Below are positions 370-37,013 of a stretch of DNA of 37,194 bases, in pieces. The position numbers were made by a program, and so were the translations under genes. The notes below the pieces were generated by a model. That model was not told the origin of the DNA and made no database searches. It was given only the letters and a program-made list of their open reading frames with translations. The stretch is from the NCBI GenBank assembly GCA_017411805.1, contig JAFQPI010000065.1, forward strand, positions 1 through 37,194, read 5' to 3'. Origin of the DNA: Clostridia bacterium. GTDB lineage: Bacteria; Bacillota; Clostridia; Oscillospirales; CAG-272. The first letter of the stretch is position 1. Each line of letters begins with the position of its first letter.

Positions 370-2813
370 TCGCCATAGCGCTGGCCACATTCGGTACATA
401 CCTTTGCTTCAGTACAGGTAGCTGTGCCGCCGGTATGTCCGGTTACATTTGCTTCCTTACAGGTATCACAATCGTGATCGCCGTCACCGTCTGCATCGGT
501 GTGACCGGTTGCATCAACCTCTTCGGTCTTAGTTGTACCACATACGGTACAAGTAAGAAGTTTTTCCCCCTTTTCGGTACAAGTCGGGGGGGTTGTTATC
601 ACGCCTTCGTCATAGGCATGATCGTATGTATCATCATCCAAACAAATCCATACGCCTTTTTCATTATCATAGACATATGCCTTTGTTGCAGAACCGCCTT
701 TAGATGTCTCAAAATACGAGCCGTCCGCGTTTTTCAGCTTTACGGGAGTAATGGGAATTTCTACATAAGTGCTTGTCTTTTGAAGAAGCTGATATGTTAC
801 GGTTTGTGTACCGGGTTTTACGATCACCTTGCCGGTACCTTCGCTACTGTAAATGTTAGCACCGCCGGCAGTAGTGTAAACATTTCCCGAGCTGGCATCC
901 ATCGTGCCGTTGACGTTGATCATAGCGTCAACAATATCTGCCGATGTGCGAGTATACGTTCTTCCGGGGGCATAAATAACCGATATGATCGGAAGATCTG
1001 TCGCGCCACAGTAATTTCCCCACTGATCCTTATCATAAATATAAACATTTATATTCGTGTCCAATTTACATGTGGCGCCTTCTGCAACATTCACTTGACA
1101 GCCCGGCAAAAAAGCGACGTCTTGCTTGATTGTTACATTAGATCCGGAGTTTATATTAAGAGTAATATTACCATTGATACCAAGATCATAGTCTTTCGAG
1201 TTTATACTGGAAGTACCAACCTTCATCTCGACAGGTGACATTGTCATGGTACCATTGAGATCAACAATCAAACGGTCTGTCGAACCATCATAGCGCTTTG
1301 TAACATATCCGTCGGTAAGATTGAACATCGCATTTTTTGATGCAATAAACGCTACGGCAGAACCGAAGTCCGTACTCGACATATAAATGGTTGTATAAGC
1401 ATATTCTATTGCTCCGGCATAAAGAGTCAGAGGAACCTCAATATTCTGAACATAATACTGAGAAAGCGGAAATACGCCGTTATCCATCTTGGTAGACTGT
1501 GTACCGCCGCGAAAATCGGCTATCTGGAACATTTCGTATACAGATGCGCCGCTATTCGCAGTAACGCTGCCCGATCCGGTAATAAAGCCGTAGGCATACA
1601 GTGCACCGCCGTTATTTACGGTAATGCTGCTATTGCCCTGCATTTTTACAAATCCAACGCTACCGGTAGGAGCACCGCCATCCACCTTACTTCCCGCAGC
1701 ATATTTCTGCTTCGCGGAAACACTCATAGAACCATTAAGAATAATGTTTGCACCGTCCGCCATAGTTAACGTACGATACGCGGTAGGCGTTGTATAGGTT
1801 CCCGTGTTCTGAACCTGCGTTGTATACATCGTGTTAGTGCTGTCAAACGGAATCAGCAAAGTAACACCGGCGGGAATGGTATAATCTCCGGCGGGCAATG
1901 TACCATTGTTCATAAGAACCACAGCCTTGGTACTGGATCCTGCTGCATAAGTTGCAGCTTCGTTAAGATCATCGAACAAATACGACGTTCCAACTTCGTA
2001 ATAGTAAATCTTACTCATTCCCATAAGGCCGGATGAAACGGATTTCTGAGTAGCGCCACCAACGCCGAACCAAGGTGTTCCGCCATCTTTTGCAAATGCC
2101 GCCTTAATAGCCGCATCTTCCGGCATTAGCGAGCAAACCATATCGGTTGATAAAACCTTACCACTGCTTGTGTTCACCCATCCAAGAAATGTTGATCCAC
2201 TAGCAGGAGTCGCCGAAAGCTGATATACTTCCGAGGGTTTTTTTGAAAGAATAGTATCTGCTGTAATTGCTTTTCCGTCTACAGAATAACTACCATATTC
2301 TGGCGTAAGAAACGTGGTATCGACACTTCCAGAAGATTCTCGTGTTATTTTCAAAATCAATGTTGCTTCGCCATCAGTGGTACAAGTAACACTAATTTCA
2401 ATGCTAGTTTCGCTTGGAACAATCATTGTATATGACTTATCCGCAGAAATGCTTTCTTCATTAATAAATGCAGTGGCCTTGGATCCTGAAAGGGTCTGTA
2501 CTTCAAATGTCCATTTCGAATCCTCTTTTGAAGTATCAGTCAATTTTAATTTTGTTGTATATCCACTAGCTCCACAGCCTGTCGAAGGCGCAGCCTTTAG
2601 TGTTAGCGTATTTGTATTATCATCCACTCCCGTTCCTGCTGATTTTGTATCGTCATAATTAACGGAACTGACAGAAATCTGAAGATCTGTGAAACTAGTT
2701 GCATTAAACGCAGCATACACCTCAACCGTCCACCACGGGAAAAGCGCGAAAACCATAACAAATGCCAACATAAGCGCAAGCATTCGTTTTGATACATTTT
2801 TAATAATTATCAC
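1..2813 (-). CDS. Large secreted surface protein with InlB-like, solenoid and Cys-rich repeats (C-terminus beyond window)
   Basis: The reading frame stays open from a GTG at 2813 to the window edge, giving 937 complete codons with the C-terminus missing. The GTG is chosen because AGGAGG (2823-2828) lies 9 bases upstream and the next residues form a signal peptide: a Lys/Arg start, a hydrophobic run MLALMLAFVMVFALF, and a likely cut after VYA (residue 34). Residues about 175-250 resemble a divergent InlB B-repeat (YQLSATPASGSTFLGW). Residues about 350-430 and 540-660 are Gly/Asn/Ser-rich strands typical of parallel beta-helix or adhesin repeats. From about residue 745 come Cys-rich motifs (TCTVCG, HTDADGDGDHDC, VCTECG) that merge into 27-residue tandem repeats. 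It is most likely a cell-surface or wall-associated protein, but its ligand is unknown. It follows the Lgt-like gene by 52 bases and is probably cotranscribed with it. The assignment to a surface protein is firm; the function is not. Confidence 0.85.
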   Translation of the reverse strand, partial: MIIIKNVSKRMLALMLAFVMVFALFPWWTVEVYAAFNATSFTDLQISVSSVNYDDTKSAGTGVDDNTNTLTLKAAPSTGCGASGYTTKLKLTDTSKEDSKWTFEVQTLSGSKATAFINEESISADKSYTMIVPSETSIEISVTCTTDGEATLILKITRESSGSVDTTFLTPEYGSYSVDGKAITADTILSKKPSEVYQLSATPASGSTFLGWVNTSSGKVLSTDMVCSLMPEDAAIKAAFAKDGGTPWFGVGGATQKSVSSGLMGMSKIYYYEVGTSYLFDDLNEAATYAAGSSTKAVVLMNNGTLPAGDYTIPAGVTLLIPFDSTNTMYTTQVQNTGTYTTPTAYRTLTMADGANIILNGSMSVSAKQKYAAGSKVDGGAPTGSVGFVKMQGNSSITVNNGGALYAYGFITGSGSVTANSGASVYEMFQIADFRGGTQSTKMDNGVFPLSQYYVQNIEVPLTLYAGAIEYAYTTIYMSSTDFGSAVAFIASKNAMFNLTDGYVTKRYDGSTDRLIVDLNGTMTMSPVEMKVGTSSINSKDYDLGINGNITLNINSGSNVTIKQDVAFLPGCQVNVAEGATCKLDTNINVYIYDKDQWGNYCGATDLPIISVIYAPGRTYTRTSADIVDAMINVNGTMDASSGNVYTTAGGANIYSSEGTGKVIVKPGTQTVTYQLLQKTSTYVEIPITPVKLKNADGSYFETSKGGSATKAYVYDNEKGVWICLDDDTYDHAYDEGVITTPPTCTEKGEKLLTCTVCGTTKTEEVDATGHTDADGDGDHDCDTCKEANVTGHTGGTATCTEAKVCTECGQRYGEAKGHTPGAEADCVNAQTCTVCGEVLETAKGHTPGAEADCVNAQTCTVCGEVLETAKGHTPGAEADCVNAQTCTVCGEVLEAAKGHTPGAEADCVNAQTCTVCGEVLETAKGHTPGAEADCVN

Positions 2814-32474: not shown

Positions 32475-32503
32475 ATTATATCGTAGTTACGGCATTTTGT
32501 CAA
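32475..32503 (-). promoter_or_regulatory. Promoter of the esterase lipoprotein gene
   Basis: On the minus strand TTGACA (32498-32503), 17 bases and TATAAT (32475-32480) are a perfect match. It is the only promoter I called here without TG before the -10. It lies 38 bases upstream of the ATG. Confidence 0.9.
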
Positions 32504-32548: not shown

Positions 32549-35176
32549 TTAATTCAAATGAGACACTCTGTATTTCTTGCCCATAGCCTTTTCATTGAAA
32601 GTTATATAAGAATGCTTACGGCATTTGAGAATTAGTCTTCTGCCATCCTCGCGATGTGTGTAGACCGGCTCAAAATTTCCTGTGGTTGCCTTCAATTTTT
32701 CGGCAAGGGTCTCAACGTACTCCTTCTTTTTTCCGATTATCGAGGGGCACGCGAAGGAAAGCTCGTAATTATAATTCTTAAATATCGTTTTAGCAATAAG
32801 AATATATCGCGGGTTTTCAATTGGCGACAGCATCTCCGCCATGGCGGTATTGAAGATATTCTGATCGTGGATCGAAGCATTTCTCAAATGCAGGGCAACA
32901 ACGTATATTTGCTTATACGCCGTTGTTTCCACCTTTGCTGAGGGGGAGATCAGCTCGCATTCACAAAGTGTCTTATATACAGCGACTCCAAGCGTCTTGA
33001 TGGAATTTGCCGGATTGAAGTGAAAGATCATCTTTTTTATGCCGTGGTACAAAACGACAAGCAATCCCGCCATCACTGCAAGAGTTCCCAAGGTCATCGG
33101 AATATTATTATTCAGCATAAGCGTCATAAGAGGACGCAGCAAAGATATCTCTGCCGCTACAATAATCGGATTCAAAGCAAAATTCCAAAAAGTAAATATC
33201 GGAATACGCTTTTCCCGCGGAATATCCGTCTCAACGCTTACAGCAAAGCTTCCGTCCGAAATCTCGCCGCGCCACGCGTTTTTCACCTCGCCGCGCGCCG
33301 CAGAAAGCTTCAGCATTTCTCCATTGATCCGTTCGATACCTTTTTTATCATAGGGCGGACGGATCGCCGTTATACGCTCGATTCCGCTTTCTATCACTCC
33401 GCTTGTATAATTCGGACCCATAAAGGAATCAAAACGACGCTTCAGCACGTCGTAATCGTAAGAATGAAGCTCTTTATGATCTTCGTTAACGTAAGCTGCG
33501 ATCCTTTCTGCCGCTTTATCCTTGAACAAATACTCGGGCTCAATCGTCACAAGATGCCAAATGTTCGACGACTTATTCGGATCATTTTTATCAATTCGAA
33601 TAGCGCGACCGCGCATCTGATTGGACAATACAAAGCTGCCCACAAAACTTGCCAGGATCAAGGAATTGATGCAAGGGGAATCCCAACCTTCGCCGAGAAG
33701 AGATTTTGTTCCGATAAGAATTTGGATCTTCCCTTCCTCAAATAACCTTCCAACGTAATCCACACCCCGATGGATAGCTCCGGAAAATTCAACGGTACAG
33801 TAATCCGTGCCTTCGATATCTTCCTTCTTATGCTTGACGTCGGAAAGATCTATCGATTTCGGCAGTATCACAAGCGTCCCCGAAAGTACGCCTATATTTA
33901 CGTCCGCGTTTGAACGCCGCAAGGTTTCAAATATACTGACGATATTAATCGAATTGAATTCTCCCGTCGATGCAACCTTCGCGAGATTTTCCTTCTTTAT
34001 GTAATCGGTAAGAACAAGCATTCGAAGTCTCTCGCCCATAACGGATACCTCGTGCTCTGCTATCCTCTTTATGCTGTCAAGCTTTCCCACGGAGGATATC
34101 AGCGTTCTCTTCAAGCGTTCGTTAAGATCAAGCGTGACCTTCTTCTTTTCAAAAACCGAATTATTCCTTAAAATAGAAACTATCTCAGCTTTCCGATCGT
34201 CGTCAATCAATTCTCCGTCAAGCAGGAATTGAATTGCTGTTTCGGCATACTTCATTTTGAAAAGCGGAAGGCCTCTTTTAGCGGTCAGCTCACGAACAAG
34301 CTTCTTATCAACTTCAAAGCCGTAATGTTTAATGAGCGTTACAAGCGCAATATATTTTGCCGCGTCGGAGAAGAGCTTTTCATAATCCTTCCCGTCATTT
34401 AGCCTGCTGCAAAGTCCGGAGAGGAAATCCAGCTTGCCGATCTCCTCGACAGCAATTACGGCGCGTTCCTTGTGAGTTCGAAAGCTTGCGATTTCAGATT
34501 CGGTAGGATAATTGAAATACACGTAATCCTGATGCGGACAGAGCGTATTCTGACCGACGAGCTCGGGAACGAAAATCTCTTCGTCGATCTCTCCGCAGAT
34601 ATTCATATATCTGTTCCATTCTGAGCCTTCAGAATCATACGGCGGTGTTGCCGTGAGAGAAATGATCTTTACGTCATTATCAAGCGCGGCAATAAATTTT
34701 TCAAGCGCGCGTTGCCATTCATTTTTGAGATGATGTGCTTCGTCAAGACATACCGTTTTGATTCCAAAATCCCTCATCGCGGCAAAAATATCAACGTCTG
34801 AACAGTCAACGTCCCCGTCATCCGCGGCAGAAACCTTATCTATTGCGGTATAAAGAGCCTGATAAGTCACCGAATTTAACAGCTTTATGCTGTGAAGGTC
34901 GTTCGAAAAAAGTGACGAAAAATCCTCGGGATTATCAAGGAAGAGACCATTAAATCGCTCGCCCCATTGCTGACGTATTGCCGATGTTGGCGAAAGAATA
35001 ATGCAGGGAGAACCTAACCTTCTGATCAATTCAAGACCGAGGACCGTCTTTCCGCTGCCCGGCGCGGCCACAATATTTATTTTTCCGTCTTTAAGATACT
35101 TATCAGCATTGTCAAGCACCCGTCTCTGATAGTCACGGAAATCCCCTCTAAAATGAATCTTTTCAAAGCCGATCAT
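32549..35176 (-). CDS. DEAD/DEAH-type SF2 helicase with a C-terminal membrane hairpin
   Basis: This 875-residue protein has the SF2 motifs in order: Walker A VAAPGSGKT (36-44), LDEAHHL with DEAH at 145-148, SLTATPP (173-179), LIGTKSLLGEGWDSP (487-501), and motif VI NQMRGRAIRIDK (519-530). The spacing between motifs III and V is long, with an inserted helical region (about 220-420). Two hydrophobic stretches at about 663-685 and 693-713, separated by NNNIP, look like a membrane hairpin. An unrecognised 160-residue C-terminal domain follows. Helicases of this class act in repair, restriction or phage defence; a membrane anchor is unusual. GGAGAAG precedes the ATG. It follows the methyltransferase gene by 43 bases and is probably cotranscribed. 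No terminator was seen downstream. Confidence 0.85.
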   Translation of the reverse strand: MIGFEKIHFRGDFRDYQRRVLDNADKYLKDGKINIVAAPGSGKTVLGLELIRRLGSPCIILSPTSAIRQQWGERFNGLFLDNPEDFSSLFSNDLHSIKLLNSVTYQALYTAIDKVSAADDGDVDCSDVDIFAAMRDFGIKTVCLDEAHHLKNEWQRALEKFIAALDNDVKIISLTATPPYDSEGSEWNRYMNICGEIDEEIFVPELVGQNTLCPHQDYVYFNYPTESEIASFRTHKERAVIAVEEIGKLDFLSGLCSRLNDGKDYEKLFSDAAKYIALVTLIKHYGFEVDKKLVRELTAKRGLPLFKMKYAETAIQFLLDGELIDDDRKAEIVSILRNNSVFEKKKVTLDLNERLKRTLISSVGKLDSIKRIAEHEVSVMGERLRMLVLTDYIKKENLAKVASTGEFNSINIVSIFETLRRSNADVNIGVLSGTLVILPKSIDLSDVKHKKEDIEGTDYCTVEFSGAIHRGVDYVGRLFEEGKIQILIGTKSLLGEGWDSPCINSLILASFVGSFVLSNQMRGRAIRIDKNDPNKSSNIWHLVTIEPEYLFKDKAAERIAAYVNEDHKELHSYDYDVLKRRFDSFMGPNYTSGVIESGIERITAIRPPYDKKGIERINGEMLKLSAARGEVKNAWRGEISDGSFAVSVETDIPREKRIPIFTFWNFALNPIIVAAEISLLRPLMTLMLNNNIPMTLGTLAVMAGLLVVLYHGIKKMIFHFNPANSIKTLGVAVYKTLCECELISPSAKVETTAYKQIYVVALHLRNASIHDQNIFNTAMAEMLSPIENPRYILIAKTIFKNYNYELSFACPSIIGKKKEYVETLAEKLKATTGNFEPVYTHREDGRRLILKCRKHSYITFNEKAMGKKYRVSHLN

Positions 35177-35219
35177 AATATCTTCTCCTTCATGAATGTG
35201 TTCAACATATATTACTTTT

Positions 35220-36158
35220 TTATTTGATACCGGTTACAATAAAGTTGAAACCTCCGGTCCACTCAAAGCTGTTGTCATTTTCAAAATTATTCCTTACGTA
35301 TTCAAGCTTGCGGTTCATCAGAGCTATCAGACGACTCAATTTGACGTCATCGAAACCGTGCTCGATATATATTTCTCGTTTTTCTTCGTAGCGTGACTCG
35401 ATCCATCCGATATCTCCCTCGATCTCTTTAATCAAAAGCTGTTTGCGGTATTCGATCGGATAACTTGTGTCGTTGTAATTGAACGTATAACCGAACGGAT
35501 GAATTTTTATATCTTTCAATCCGCACAGATCAAACATCTTCGGGTAACGAAGTGCATGCCATTCTTCGCTTTGATTGAAATCTGTGTTCTGTCTTGCGTA
35601 TTTTGCAAAAATACCCGCTTCCTCGTTCGACAGCCGCTGAAGTTCATCGGCGCCGTCAAACGGATAGTCGCCCTGCCAGACAATACGCGGAATCGCAGTC
35701 GTAGCGACAACACAGGAAACAACTCCGCCGGGTTTACACACTCGGATCATTTCTCTCAGCCCCGCAACCGGATCTGAAAGCACGCCGATGTAAGTATAAT
35801 TCGTCACCGCATCATACGTATTGTCATTGAAAGAAAGATTAAATCCGTCGTCAAGTGTCAGTGTAACCTTATCTGTAAGCGACAATTCATCAAGCTTATT
35901 CTTGCCATATTCAATGAATCTCTCATTGATATCAAAACCGTCGATATGTCCGCCCTTCAAATCTGATGCGAGGTAACGCGCAAACACTCCTGTACCGCAT
36001 CCGGCATCCAAAACGTAACTTTCGGGCGTAATTCCGAGCCATTTGTAAAAAAGGGGACGCATATCATCGGTAAATCTGAAGGATCGGTTTTCAAATCCCG
36101 AAAAATTTTGCCAAGATTTCCAAATATCGTTGCTGCTCTTATTTATTTCTTGCATCAT
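35220..36158 (-). CDS. Class I SAM-dependent methyltransferase
   Basis: This 312-residue soluble protein has SAM motif I YVLDAGCGTGVFARYL (48-63), the acidic end of strand 2 in IDGFDINERFI, and a motif IV-like AVTNYTYIGVLSDPVAGLRE, then MIRVCKPGGVVSCVVATTAI. This is the Methyltransf_11/25 layout, which mostly acts on small molecules rather than DNA; the DNA-methylase motifs DPPY or NPPY are absent. A long C-terminal part (200-312) of unknown type may bind the substrate. GAGG lies 6 bases before the first of two ATG codons. It is the first gene of a likely operon with the membrane helicase. Its substrate is unknown. Confidence 0.88.
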   Translation of the reverse strand: MMQEINKSSNDIWKSWQNFSGFENRSFRFTDDMRPLFYKWLGITPESYVLDAGCGTGVFARYLASDLKGGHIDGFDINERFIEYGKNKLDELSLTDKVTLTLDDGFNLSFNDNTYDAVTNYTYIGVLSDPVAGLREMIRVCKPGGVVSCVVATTAIPRIVWQGDYPFDGADELQRLSNEEAGIFAKYARQNTDFNQSEEWHALRYPKMFDLCGLKDIKIHPFGYTFNYNDTSYPIEYRKQLLIKEIEGDIGWIESRYEEKREIYIEHGFDDVKLSRLIALMNRKLEYVRNNFENDNSFEWTGGFNFIVTGIK

Positions 36159-36190: not shown

Positions 36191-36219
36191 ATTATAACAC
36201 AGTTTGGTTTTCTTGTCAA
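36191..36219 (-). promoter_or_regulatory. Promoter of the methyltransferase/helicase operon
   Basis: On the minus strand TTGACA (36214-36219), 17 bases and TATAAT (36191-36196) are a perfect match, with TGT before the -10. It lies 33 bases upstream of the ATG. Confidence 0.9.
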
Positions 36220-36452: not shown

Positions 36453-37013
36453 TTATTTCTTTTTTATAAATTCATTACAACTCATTTTTCCACAACTGTT
36501 GATCTGATACGCACTCACATCTCCACTTGCCGTAATATCGCCGTTGATTTCATGGCAGTCGATCCTGCCGTGGCAAACAACGTCACCATTTATGCAACCG
36601 TCCGACACAATGCTACCGAAGACCTCAACCTTAAAATACTGTTTTGTGGTTTCATTGCAATCACGCGGAAAAAACACATCGATTGAATTATTGCCCTCTT
36701 GCTTCTTGATGATTTTCTTACCAATAGTTTGAAACACTCTCACAACGTTATCATCCGGCCAAGGAAATTCCGCGCAATGGTCAAAATGTATCTCCGTCTT
36801 CACCTCTCTTGAGAATAATTCGTCAATGTGACAGCCAAAGAGATCAGCCATCATTGGCAAAAGTGCAATATCCGGGGCACATTTAGCTGTCTCCCATTTG
36901 GAAACTGCCTGATATGACACACCAATCTTTTCTGCAAGCGCAACTTGACTCAGCCCACTTCTCTTTCTGTATTTAGTGATATTGTGAGCCAAGATTTCAT
37001 TAATTCGATCCAT
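36453..37013 (-). CDS. XRE-family regulator with C-terminal solenoid-like domain
   Basis: This 186-residue protein has an N-terminal Cro/CI-type helix-turn-helix (about 8-66): LSQVALAEKIGVSYQAVSKW with ALLPMMADLFGCHIDELF completing the fold. The C-terminal part (about 125-180) consists of short strands with regularly spaced Gly-Asp and Cys: VEVFGSIVSDGCINGDVVC, then HGRIDCHEINGDITASGDV. This resembles the short beta-solenoid of polymer-forming/bactofilin-like proteins. At least six Cys fall in the C-terminal half, so redox or metal sensing is possible. AAGGAG is 9 bases before the ATG. A palindrome over the -10 suggests autoregulation. Its targets are unknown; the nearest operon encodes the methyltransferase and helicase. 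Confidence 0.85.
   Translation of the reverse strand: MDRINEILAHNITKYRKRSGLSQVALAEKIGVSYQAVSKWETAKCAPDIALLPMMADLFGCHIDELFSREVKTEIHFDHCAEFPWPDDNVVRVFQTIGKKIIKKQEGNNSIDVFFPRDCNETTKQYFKVEVFGSIVSDGCINGDVVCHGRIDCHEINGDITASGDVSAYQINSCGKMSCNEFIKKK

Follow-up and report, generated by a model that had tools for sequence, protein, structure and literature searches.

A sporadically distributed SF2 helicase family with a hydrophobic hairpin, probably a membrane anchor, between its motor and an unrecognised C-terminal domain

Helicases are, to our knowledge, normally soluble proteins. The solved motors nearest to the helicase described here are repair ATPases: RAD25/XPB (RAD25 and the DNA-dependent ATPase XPBII; PDB 2fz4 and 6p4f) gives the best PDB match, and UvrB a weaker one. 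The RAD25/XPB match runs over residues 13-115 with motifs I and Ia, that is, about 100 of 875 residues, and leaves a hydrophobic hairpin and the C-terminal domain outside it. The N-terminal motor also scores as ResIII, like the motors of type I and type III restriction enzymes; unlike those systems, however, no nuclease domain is recognised here (REase_I reaches only E 0.008), and neither a DNA methylase motif nor a specificity subunit is found beside the helicase. Phage-type helicases of PHROG phrog_16 match 15 of 15 family members (residues 14-241 of the window protein), but this match is confined to the motor, and four pattern-based scans of viral_contigs, three of which used single proteins and so detect close relatives only, found no relative of the whole protein. 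The defence systems Hachiman, Druantia, Zorya, DISARM and Gabija, tabulated in PMC10952713, likewise include a helicase of accessory and sporadic occurrence, whereas the helicase here is a single gene, with no significant match to a PADLOC 2.0 model (best E 0.0067). A helicase with a membrane hairpin is not mentioned in the parts of PMC10952713 and PMC12948488 accessible to us. The NCBI entry WP_152404286.1, from a Paenibacillus cellulositrophicus plasmid, belongs to the same family over its full length, hairpin included and with no adjoining methyltransferase, and bears the generic name 'DEAD/DEAH box helicase family protein'. No description of such a membrane-tethered bacterial SF2 family was recognisable among the openly licensed papers that our searches listed.

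We analysed a stretch of 37,194 nucleotides, hereafter the window, from a Clostridia bacterium (contig JAFQPI010000065.1), in which an earlier note made from the letters alone had proposed a membrane-anchored SF2 helicase cotranscribed with a methyltransferase. The features discussed are collected in Table 1. The N-terminal motor matches Pfam ResIII (E 9e-16, residues 12-179), and Helicase_C is matched over residues 478-528 below the Pfam cut-off only. The core motifs I, Ia, II, III, V and VI that the note had claimed are all present and in order: APGSGKT, SPTSAIRQQW (62-71), DEAH (145-148), TAT (175-177), GTKSLLGEGWDSP (489-501, motif V, read by eye) and QMRGRAIR (520-527). Their catalytic residues, with P39, G40, G42, K43 and T44 of motif I, are invariant across the 15 members of alignment A1. 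By its sequence the protein is an SF2 helicase with intact motor motifs, and we infer that members of the family are ATPases.

Table 1. Features of the window, by position.
Feature	Position	Strand	Size or residues	Basis
Promoter-like TTGACA-N17-TATAAT for the next gene, probable unit end	32475..32503	-		pattern only
SF2 helicase with putative membrane hairpin (P0001)	32549..35176	-	875 aa	ORF, domain search and relatives
C-terminal domain, unrecognised	32552..33025	-	residues 718-875	Pfam, PDB and class-genome searches
Hydrophobic hairpin	33053..33166	-	residues 671-708 (671-687 and 692-708, loop LNNN)	Kyte-Doolittle
Walker A / motif I APGSGKT	35045..35065	-	residues 38-44	pattern match
AAGGAGAAGA, like a ribosome-binding site, before the helicase start codon ATG	35181..35190	-		read from the sequence
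SAM-dependent methyltransferase (P0002), local neighbour and not conserved partner	35220..36158	-	312 aa	
Promoter-like TTGACA-N17-TATAAT upstream of the methyltransferase	36191..36219	-		pattern only
HTH (Cro/CI-type) regulator (P0003)	36453..37013	-	186 aa	

The hairpin had been placed at about residues 663-713, and the best segments lie close to that position, with values of 1.72 (671-687) and 2.11 (692-708) on the Kyte-Doolittle scale, the only scale used, over 17 residues. We compared the window protein with its relatives in a set of 47 members that includes it and omits one gene in two pieces (L024), three fragments (L037, L038 and L039) and L161, G1320, G1328 and G1221; L062 and L145 are N-terminally incomplete, and the many close kin make for fewer than 47 independent cases. 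A hydrophobic stretch occurs at the aligned position in 44 of the 47 members and is a trait of the family, and 35 have two segments of at least 1.49 each. Among seven other Helicase_C proteins of the same genome, some of them from ORFs possibly cut by locus ends, none has a comparable pair (best 1.21 vs 1.72), and their single stretches reach up to 1.69 vs 2.02 in the window helicase. When the window helicase was shuffled, 19 of 1000 shuffles matched its best single stretch at that segment length; for the 44 members with a stretch the figure ranged from 0 to 66 per 1000. In the 38 members in which both segments exceed 1.0, lysine and arginine make up fractions of 0.195 and 0.232 of the 15-residue flanks vs 0.081 of the loop, and these positive flanks would place the motor and the C-terminal domain both in the cytoplasm.

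Could the hairpin be buried, or serve oligomerisation, in a helicase that is soluble, rather than act as an anchor? The first segment of the window protein is marginal and contains one glutamate and one arginine, the segments are short and glycine/alanine-rich in a branch of proteins of about 1000 residues, six further members have one clear segment only, and three of the 47 have no hydrophobic stretch, with at least two losses within the family, so that some members do without the anchor and it varies among the others. However, the hairpin-less members miss it as a block, the segments reach 3.5 in some members, the flanks are positive around a charge-poor loop, and the sequence of the hairpin drifts while its hydrophobicity stays, and we consider a soluble protein unlikely. 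The helicase is probably membrane-anchored, as the earlier note had suggested, with insertion into the membrane predicted from the aligned stretch and its flanks.

The C-terminal domain was said to be unrecognised and so it proved, with no Pfam hit at E ≤ 0.001 among the domains of 30 members (best 0.003) and no PDB sequence match below E 0.1. Profile searches of the helicase and C-terminal domains found no nuclease domain at E ≤ 0.001, nor was any known effector domain recognised; Hjc gave a weak match (E 0.13) to one of 30 C-terminal domains. A search of 291 genomes of the class returned 17 matches at E ≤ 0.01, of which 14 were strong, every one in a frame of 833-1028 aa and only on this helicase. 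The three weak ones (E 0.003-0.005; a solute-binding lipoprotein twice and NusA once) were taken as chance. Across the family the domain is divergent, with a mean column identity of 36% and 15-29% identity to the window in most of the distant members. Among five close members, pN is lowest in the C-terminal domain in 10 of 10 pairs (0.07-0.13, against 0.11-0.18 in the motor, 0.12-0.36 in the hairpin and 0.16-0.30 in the linker 601-660), which shows constraint on the domain among close relatives.

In the window the methyltransferase and the helicase lie on the same strand with 43 bases between them, and a consensus-perfect promoter pattern stands upstream of the methyltransferase, while the one near the helicase start matches at 9 of 12 positions only; promoter-like sites, all pattern matches, numbered 18 against a shuffle mean of 8.8. 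Both genes have a similarly lowered GC content, 0.41-0.44 vs 0.51-0.57 in the ten preceding genes of the contig. Co-transcription is plausible here, and that much of the cotranscribed pair stands. The methyltransferase is Methyltransf_25/UbiE-like, contains LDAGCGTG and, in a pattern search, has no NPPY-type DNA-methylase motif, so that it looks like a small-molecule enzyme and not a DNA methylase, again in line with what had been claimed. A two-gene defence or modification system, in which the methyltransferase would mark a small molecule or protein, is nevertheless extremely unlikely. None of 47 other helicase neighbourhoods contains the methyltransferase, a weaker test at two with little upstream DNA (L028, 1000 bases; L063, 370 bases), and no helicase was detectable in two genomes, 84% and 80% complete, whose methyltransferase is 73-76% identical. 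Furthermore, an HTH regulator precedes the methyltransferase in two of three loci, the homologue at L111 being 33% identical to P0003. We rejected the methyltransferase as a partner of the helicase. Of the two findings that the earlier note had named as jointly refuting, homologues without the hairpin and the lack of a conserved partner gene, only the second was made, since 44 of 47 members have the hydrophobic stretch.

Nor did other neighbours qualify as partners. A small gene of 145, 145 and 121 aa lies upstream of the alphaproteobacterial members L025, L026 and L024, and one of 159, 178 and 178 aa upstream of L074, L143 and L144; the two sets show no homology with one another (hhalign probability 0.3, tiny alignments), and no further homologue was found among the adjacent genes of the 34 loci compared all against all, 14 later loci standing outside this comparison. 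On these comparisons the family has no general partner gene. Defence genes were sought with PADLOC among ORFs of 110-900 aa called mechanically. Family hits numbered 16 among 147 near genes of 29 loci (A2, without the window, L026, L073, L075 and L076), 4 among 61 near genes of 11 loci (A6, without L137, L146 and L147) and 6 among 89 genes further off (A7, a random draw from the 204 genes that lie four or more ORFs off at the same 29 loci), the last a weak control since it comes from the same contigs. Compared in this way, defence hits show no enrichment by the helicase and are about as frequent near as far, one Qat locus apart (L035), where homologues of QatB, QatC and QatD end about 430 bases upstream on the same strand. 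The helicase is also carried by two scaffolds of faecal origin whose records name 'Bacteriophage sp.' and bear the mark UNVERIFIED; its neighbours there look bacterial by eye (a NUDIX-like ORF in L028), and we do not count them as proof of a phage gene.

ComFA, the motor of DNA uptake, has an N-terminal zinc-binding domain, and com genes are widespread in Firmicutes. A membrane-held uptake or competence motor, a functional counterpart of ComFA, would agree with a hairpin and an SF2 motor facing inside, and with an ORF 15 bases downstream of the helicase at L067 whose N terminus looks pilin-like by eye. However, this single pilin-like neighbour recurs at no other locus whose adjacent genes were compared by eye, the helicase is sporadic where com genes are widespread, and motor homology from residue 12 of the window protein leaves no room for a zinc domain of the ComFA type. 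The uptake role offered in the earlier note thus finds little support, and we regard it as very unlikely.

The helicase is found at E ≤ 1e-10 in 12 of 394 genomes of the order, including three that have just fragments, and at E ≤ 1e-60 in 19 of 391 genomes of the class, in 2 of 398 of the phylum, and in 7 of 58 and 14 of 148 genomes of the orders of G710 and G1050; these genome samples overlap. RpoB was compared between the window genome and 21 other helicase genomes, the ORF of G037 giving no RpoB alignment. In three draft genomes from other orders of the class, RpoB and helicase are 62% and 76% (G442), 61% and 76% (G705) and 59% and 74% (G401) identical to those of the window, as against 70% and 43% (G144) and 72% and 42% (G020) in genomes of its own taxonomic family. 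The helicase tree agrees with horizontal transfer. Furthermore, G356 carries a 124-aa helicase fragment 94% identical to the window, on a contig where seven genes shared with the window are only 35-68% identical. Nucleotide similarity among helicase loci ends near the ORF ends, but synonymous sites are near saturation, so that this says nothing firm on the ends of a cassette. Judged by these identities, the helicase gene is transferred horizontally, on its own, among bacteria that are only distantly related. Such sporadic distribution and transfer fit a defence gene, and other accessory roles as well.

One such role would be physiological: a membrane-tethered RNA or DNA helicase of stress, repair or RNA turnover, accessory and non-immune. 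This is a serious possibility, given that no enrichment of defence genes was seen, that the nearest solved motors (RAD25/XPB and, by a weaker match, UvrB) are repair ATPases, and that two lineages show conserved synteny around housekeeping genes. In L071, L073, L075 and L076 the helicase lies beside an MFS transporter and pgk, and in L070 and L072 beside rpmE; with neighbours kept across species the gene looks resident in these lineages, not transient. Against a physiological role stand the scattered occurrence of the gene, its transfer between different orders of the class, and the in-frame stops in the copies of G217 and G401, which mark the gene as dispensable. We tentatively favour a horizontally transferred, stand-alone SF2 ATPase that is membrane-tethered and works at that site on nucleic acid, probably mobile DNA entering the cell. 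Both the C-terminal domain and the RecA-like motor (residues about 1-600) would be cytoplasmic, and the helical hairpin between them would insert into the cytoplasmic membrane and keep a translocating or unwinding motor there, where it would act on its target, probably phage or plasmid DNA on entry, while target recognition or output would fall to the C-terminal domain. The best PDB match, to a DNA-dependent ATPase, the lowered GC content and the Qat locus at L035 also count in favour of this reading. That the substrate is DNA rather than RNA, and the role directed against mobile DNA, is what we infer from this picture. A narrower version, a single-gene, membrane-resident immune translocase that engages entering DNA to block or pull it, recognises it by a new C-terminal domain and spreads between distant bacteria without a partner gene, is doubtful.

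A hairpin that sits between the motor and the C-terminal domain and stays hydrophobic despite sequence drift suggests that these helicases work at the membrane. The membrane is the site where foreign DNA enters the cell, and hence the interest of a helicase family that is probably tethered to it.

The window helicase has a motor of ResIII/DEAD type, an SF2 domain whose motifs are intact (motif V was read by eye) and whose catalytic residues are invariant in all 15 members of an aligned set (A1). The motor is followed by a pair of hydrophobic segments, here called the hairpin, scoring 1.72 against a best of 1.21 among 7 further Helicase_C proteins from this genome, none of which has a comparable pair; single hydrophobic stretches in these controls reach 1.69. 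The remaining residues, 718-875, gave no Pfam match at E ≤ 0.001 and nothing convincing in a PDB search, so that this domain is unrecognised, as the earlier note had claimed. The anatomy proposed there was confirmed in its motifs, its segment pair and its unmatched C-terminal part, and, as read from sequence, it extends to the family.

Features of the helicase and methyltransferase genes
Feature	Position	Strand	Basis
Helicase ORF	32549-35176	(-)	as earlier described
Methyltransferase ORF	35220-36158	(-)	as earlier described
Hydrophobic segment pair of helicase	residues 671-687 + 692-708		Kyte-Doolittle

Helicase relatives were gathered from whole genomes, genome contigs, and plasmid and phage records, and an alignment was made of 47 members, the window's among them, that are complete or almost so. 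A 19-residue stretch with a Kyte-Doolittle value of at least 1.5 recurs at the aligned place in 44 of the 47, which makes the hairpin a trait of the family; many members are closely akin, so hairpin counts are not independent. The stretch is missing from two Tritonibacter plasmid members, nearly identical to each other, and from one further locus (L142), and on a tree built without the hairpin columns (a quick method, long branches flagged) hairpin presence changed a minimum of two times. Both segments reach at least 1.49 in 35 of the 47 and at least 1.0 in 38, and in six members, all from the order of genome G1050, one segment is strong and the other weak. In those 38 with both segments at 1.0 or more the K/R fraction is 0.195 and 0.232 in the hairpin flanks versus 0.081 in the loop, as would be expected if the loop were outside and both soluble parts inside.

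Among five close members the C-terminal domain had the lowest pN in 10 of 10 pairs (0.07-0.13; motor 0.11-0.18, linker 0.16-0.30, hairpin 0.12-0.36), and family-wide it is divergent, with a mean column identity of 36%. All 14 strong matches to it in 291 genomes of the class lay within frames of 833-1028 aa; 13 were helicases already collected and the fourteenth reads as one. Searches of openly licensed papers, and passages of PMC10952713 and PMC12948488, yielded no account of a bacterial family of SF2 helicases bearing a membrane hairpin; as evidence of absence this is weak.

The methyltransferase had been proposed as a co-transcribed partner. A paired system is unsupported: none of the 47 other helicase neighbourhoods examined (two with little upstream DNA) contains the methyltransferase, and it was found in 3 of 98 genomes of the family, namely the window genome, G1163 and G1178, the last two of which (84% and 80% complete) gave no helicase at E ≤ 1e-5. 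In G1190, of the same genus, neither gene was found. Co-transcription in the window is likely, because the local pattern resembles a single transcription unit, and is apparently incidental. An HTH regulator precedes the methyltransferase in two of its three loci (window:35220-37013; L111:4878-6618, from G1163) and may be its real partner.

No general partner gene of the helicase emerged from these neighbourhoods. Genes beside the helicase recur among closely related species with shared synteny, and many of the neighbours, pgk, rpmE and queA among them, read as housekeeping (some by Pfam, others by eye). Upstream, two unrelated kinds of small gene recur, one in an alphaproteobacterial and the other in a clostridial branch. 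A conserved gene of 121-145 aa precedes the hairpin-less alphaproteobacterial members with a 4-base overlap (L025:11534-11968; the same gene in L026; L024:8486-8848), and one of its two scanned copies matched Halogen_Hydrol, an XpaC-type family, weakly (E 0.054). Just upstream of three members of a branch of about 1000 aa lies a small gene whose N terminus is hydrophobic/basic (L074:8322-8798, L143:10814-11350, L144:3118-3654). At L067:4386-5471 an ORF whose N terminus looks pilin-like starts 15 bases downstream of a helicase relative. Elsewhere, window:25486-28577 holds a 904-aa protein with HExxH (by eye) after a BlaI/MecI-type repressor (Penicillinase_R, E 4.5e-19; 4-base overlap), which reads as a BlaR1/BlaI-like pair.

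The helicase gene has spread horizontally. RpoB/helicase identities (%) to the window were 62/76 (G442), 61/76 (G705) and 59/74 (G401) in other orders of the class, with which the tree groups the window helicase, 68/74 in G285, and 70/43 (G144) and 72/42 (G020) within the family. In G356 a helicase fragment at a contig end is 94% identical, with seven other shared genes at 35-68%, and misassembly is a possible source of it; the G442, G705 and G401 copies, all from draft genomes, are full and free of this weakness, that of G401 having an in-frame stop. GC is 0.41-0.44 in the window block versus 0.51-0.57 in the ten preceding contig genes, and is also low in other parts of the window. A decayed copy (L039, G217:C40) retains nothing but the C-terminal part and has an in-frame stop. 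The helicase is also carried by two scaffolds from faeces that are filed as 'Bacteriophage sp.' (UNVERIFIED; L027, MT838455.1; L028, MT836806.1), but the genes next to it there look bacterial by eye.

The best PADLOC match of the window helicase had E 0.0067. Two sets of genes near the helicase, of 147 and 61, gave 16 and 4 PADLOC family-hits, and 89 genes further off on the same contigs gave 6, with no overall defence-gene enrichment in near versus far genes. What speaks for an immune role, which we infer, is that the gene is sporadic, mobile and self-contained and that its product probably sits at the membrane. A single case is suggestive of defence: at L035:5386-8159 (G194), QatB, QatC and QatD homologues (E 5e-7, 3e-103 and 3e-53), preceded by a 621-aa ORF, lie on the same strand as a helicase relative and end about 430 bases upstream of it, with a 79-aa ORF between. 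The explanation that we tentatively rate best, at somewhat under even confidence and with an accessory role outside immunity nearly as likely, is that the helicase would be a membrane-tethered motor working on nucleic acid, probably incoming DNA.
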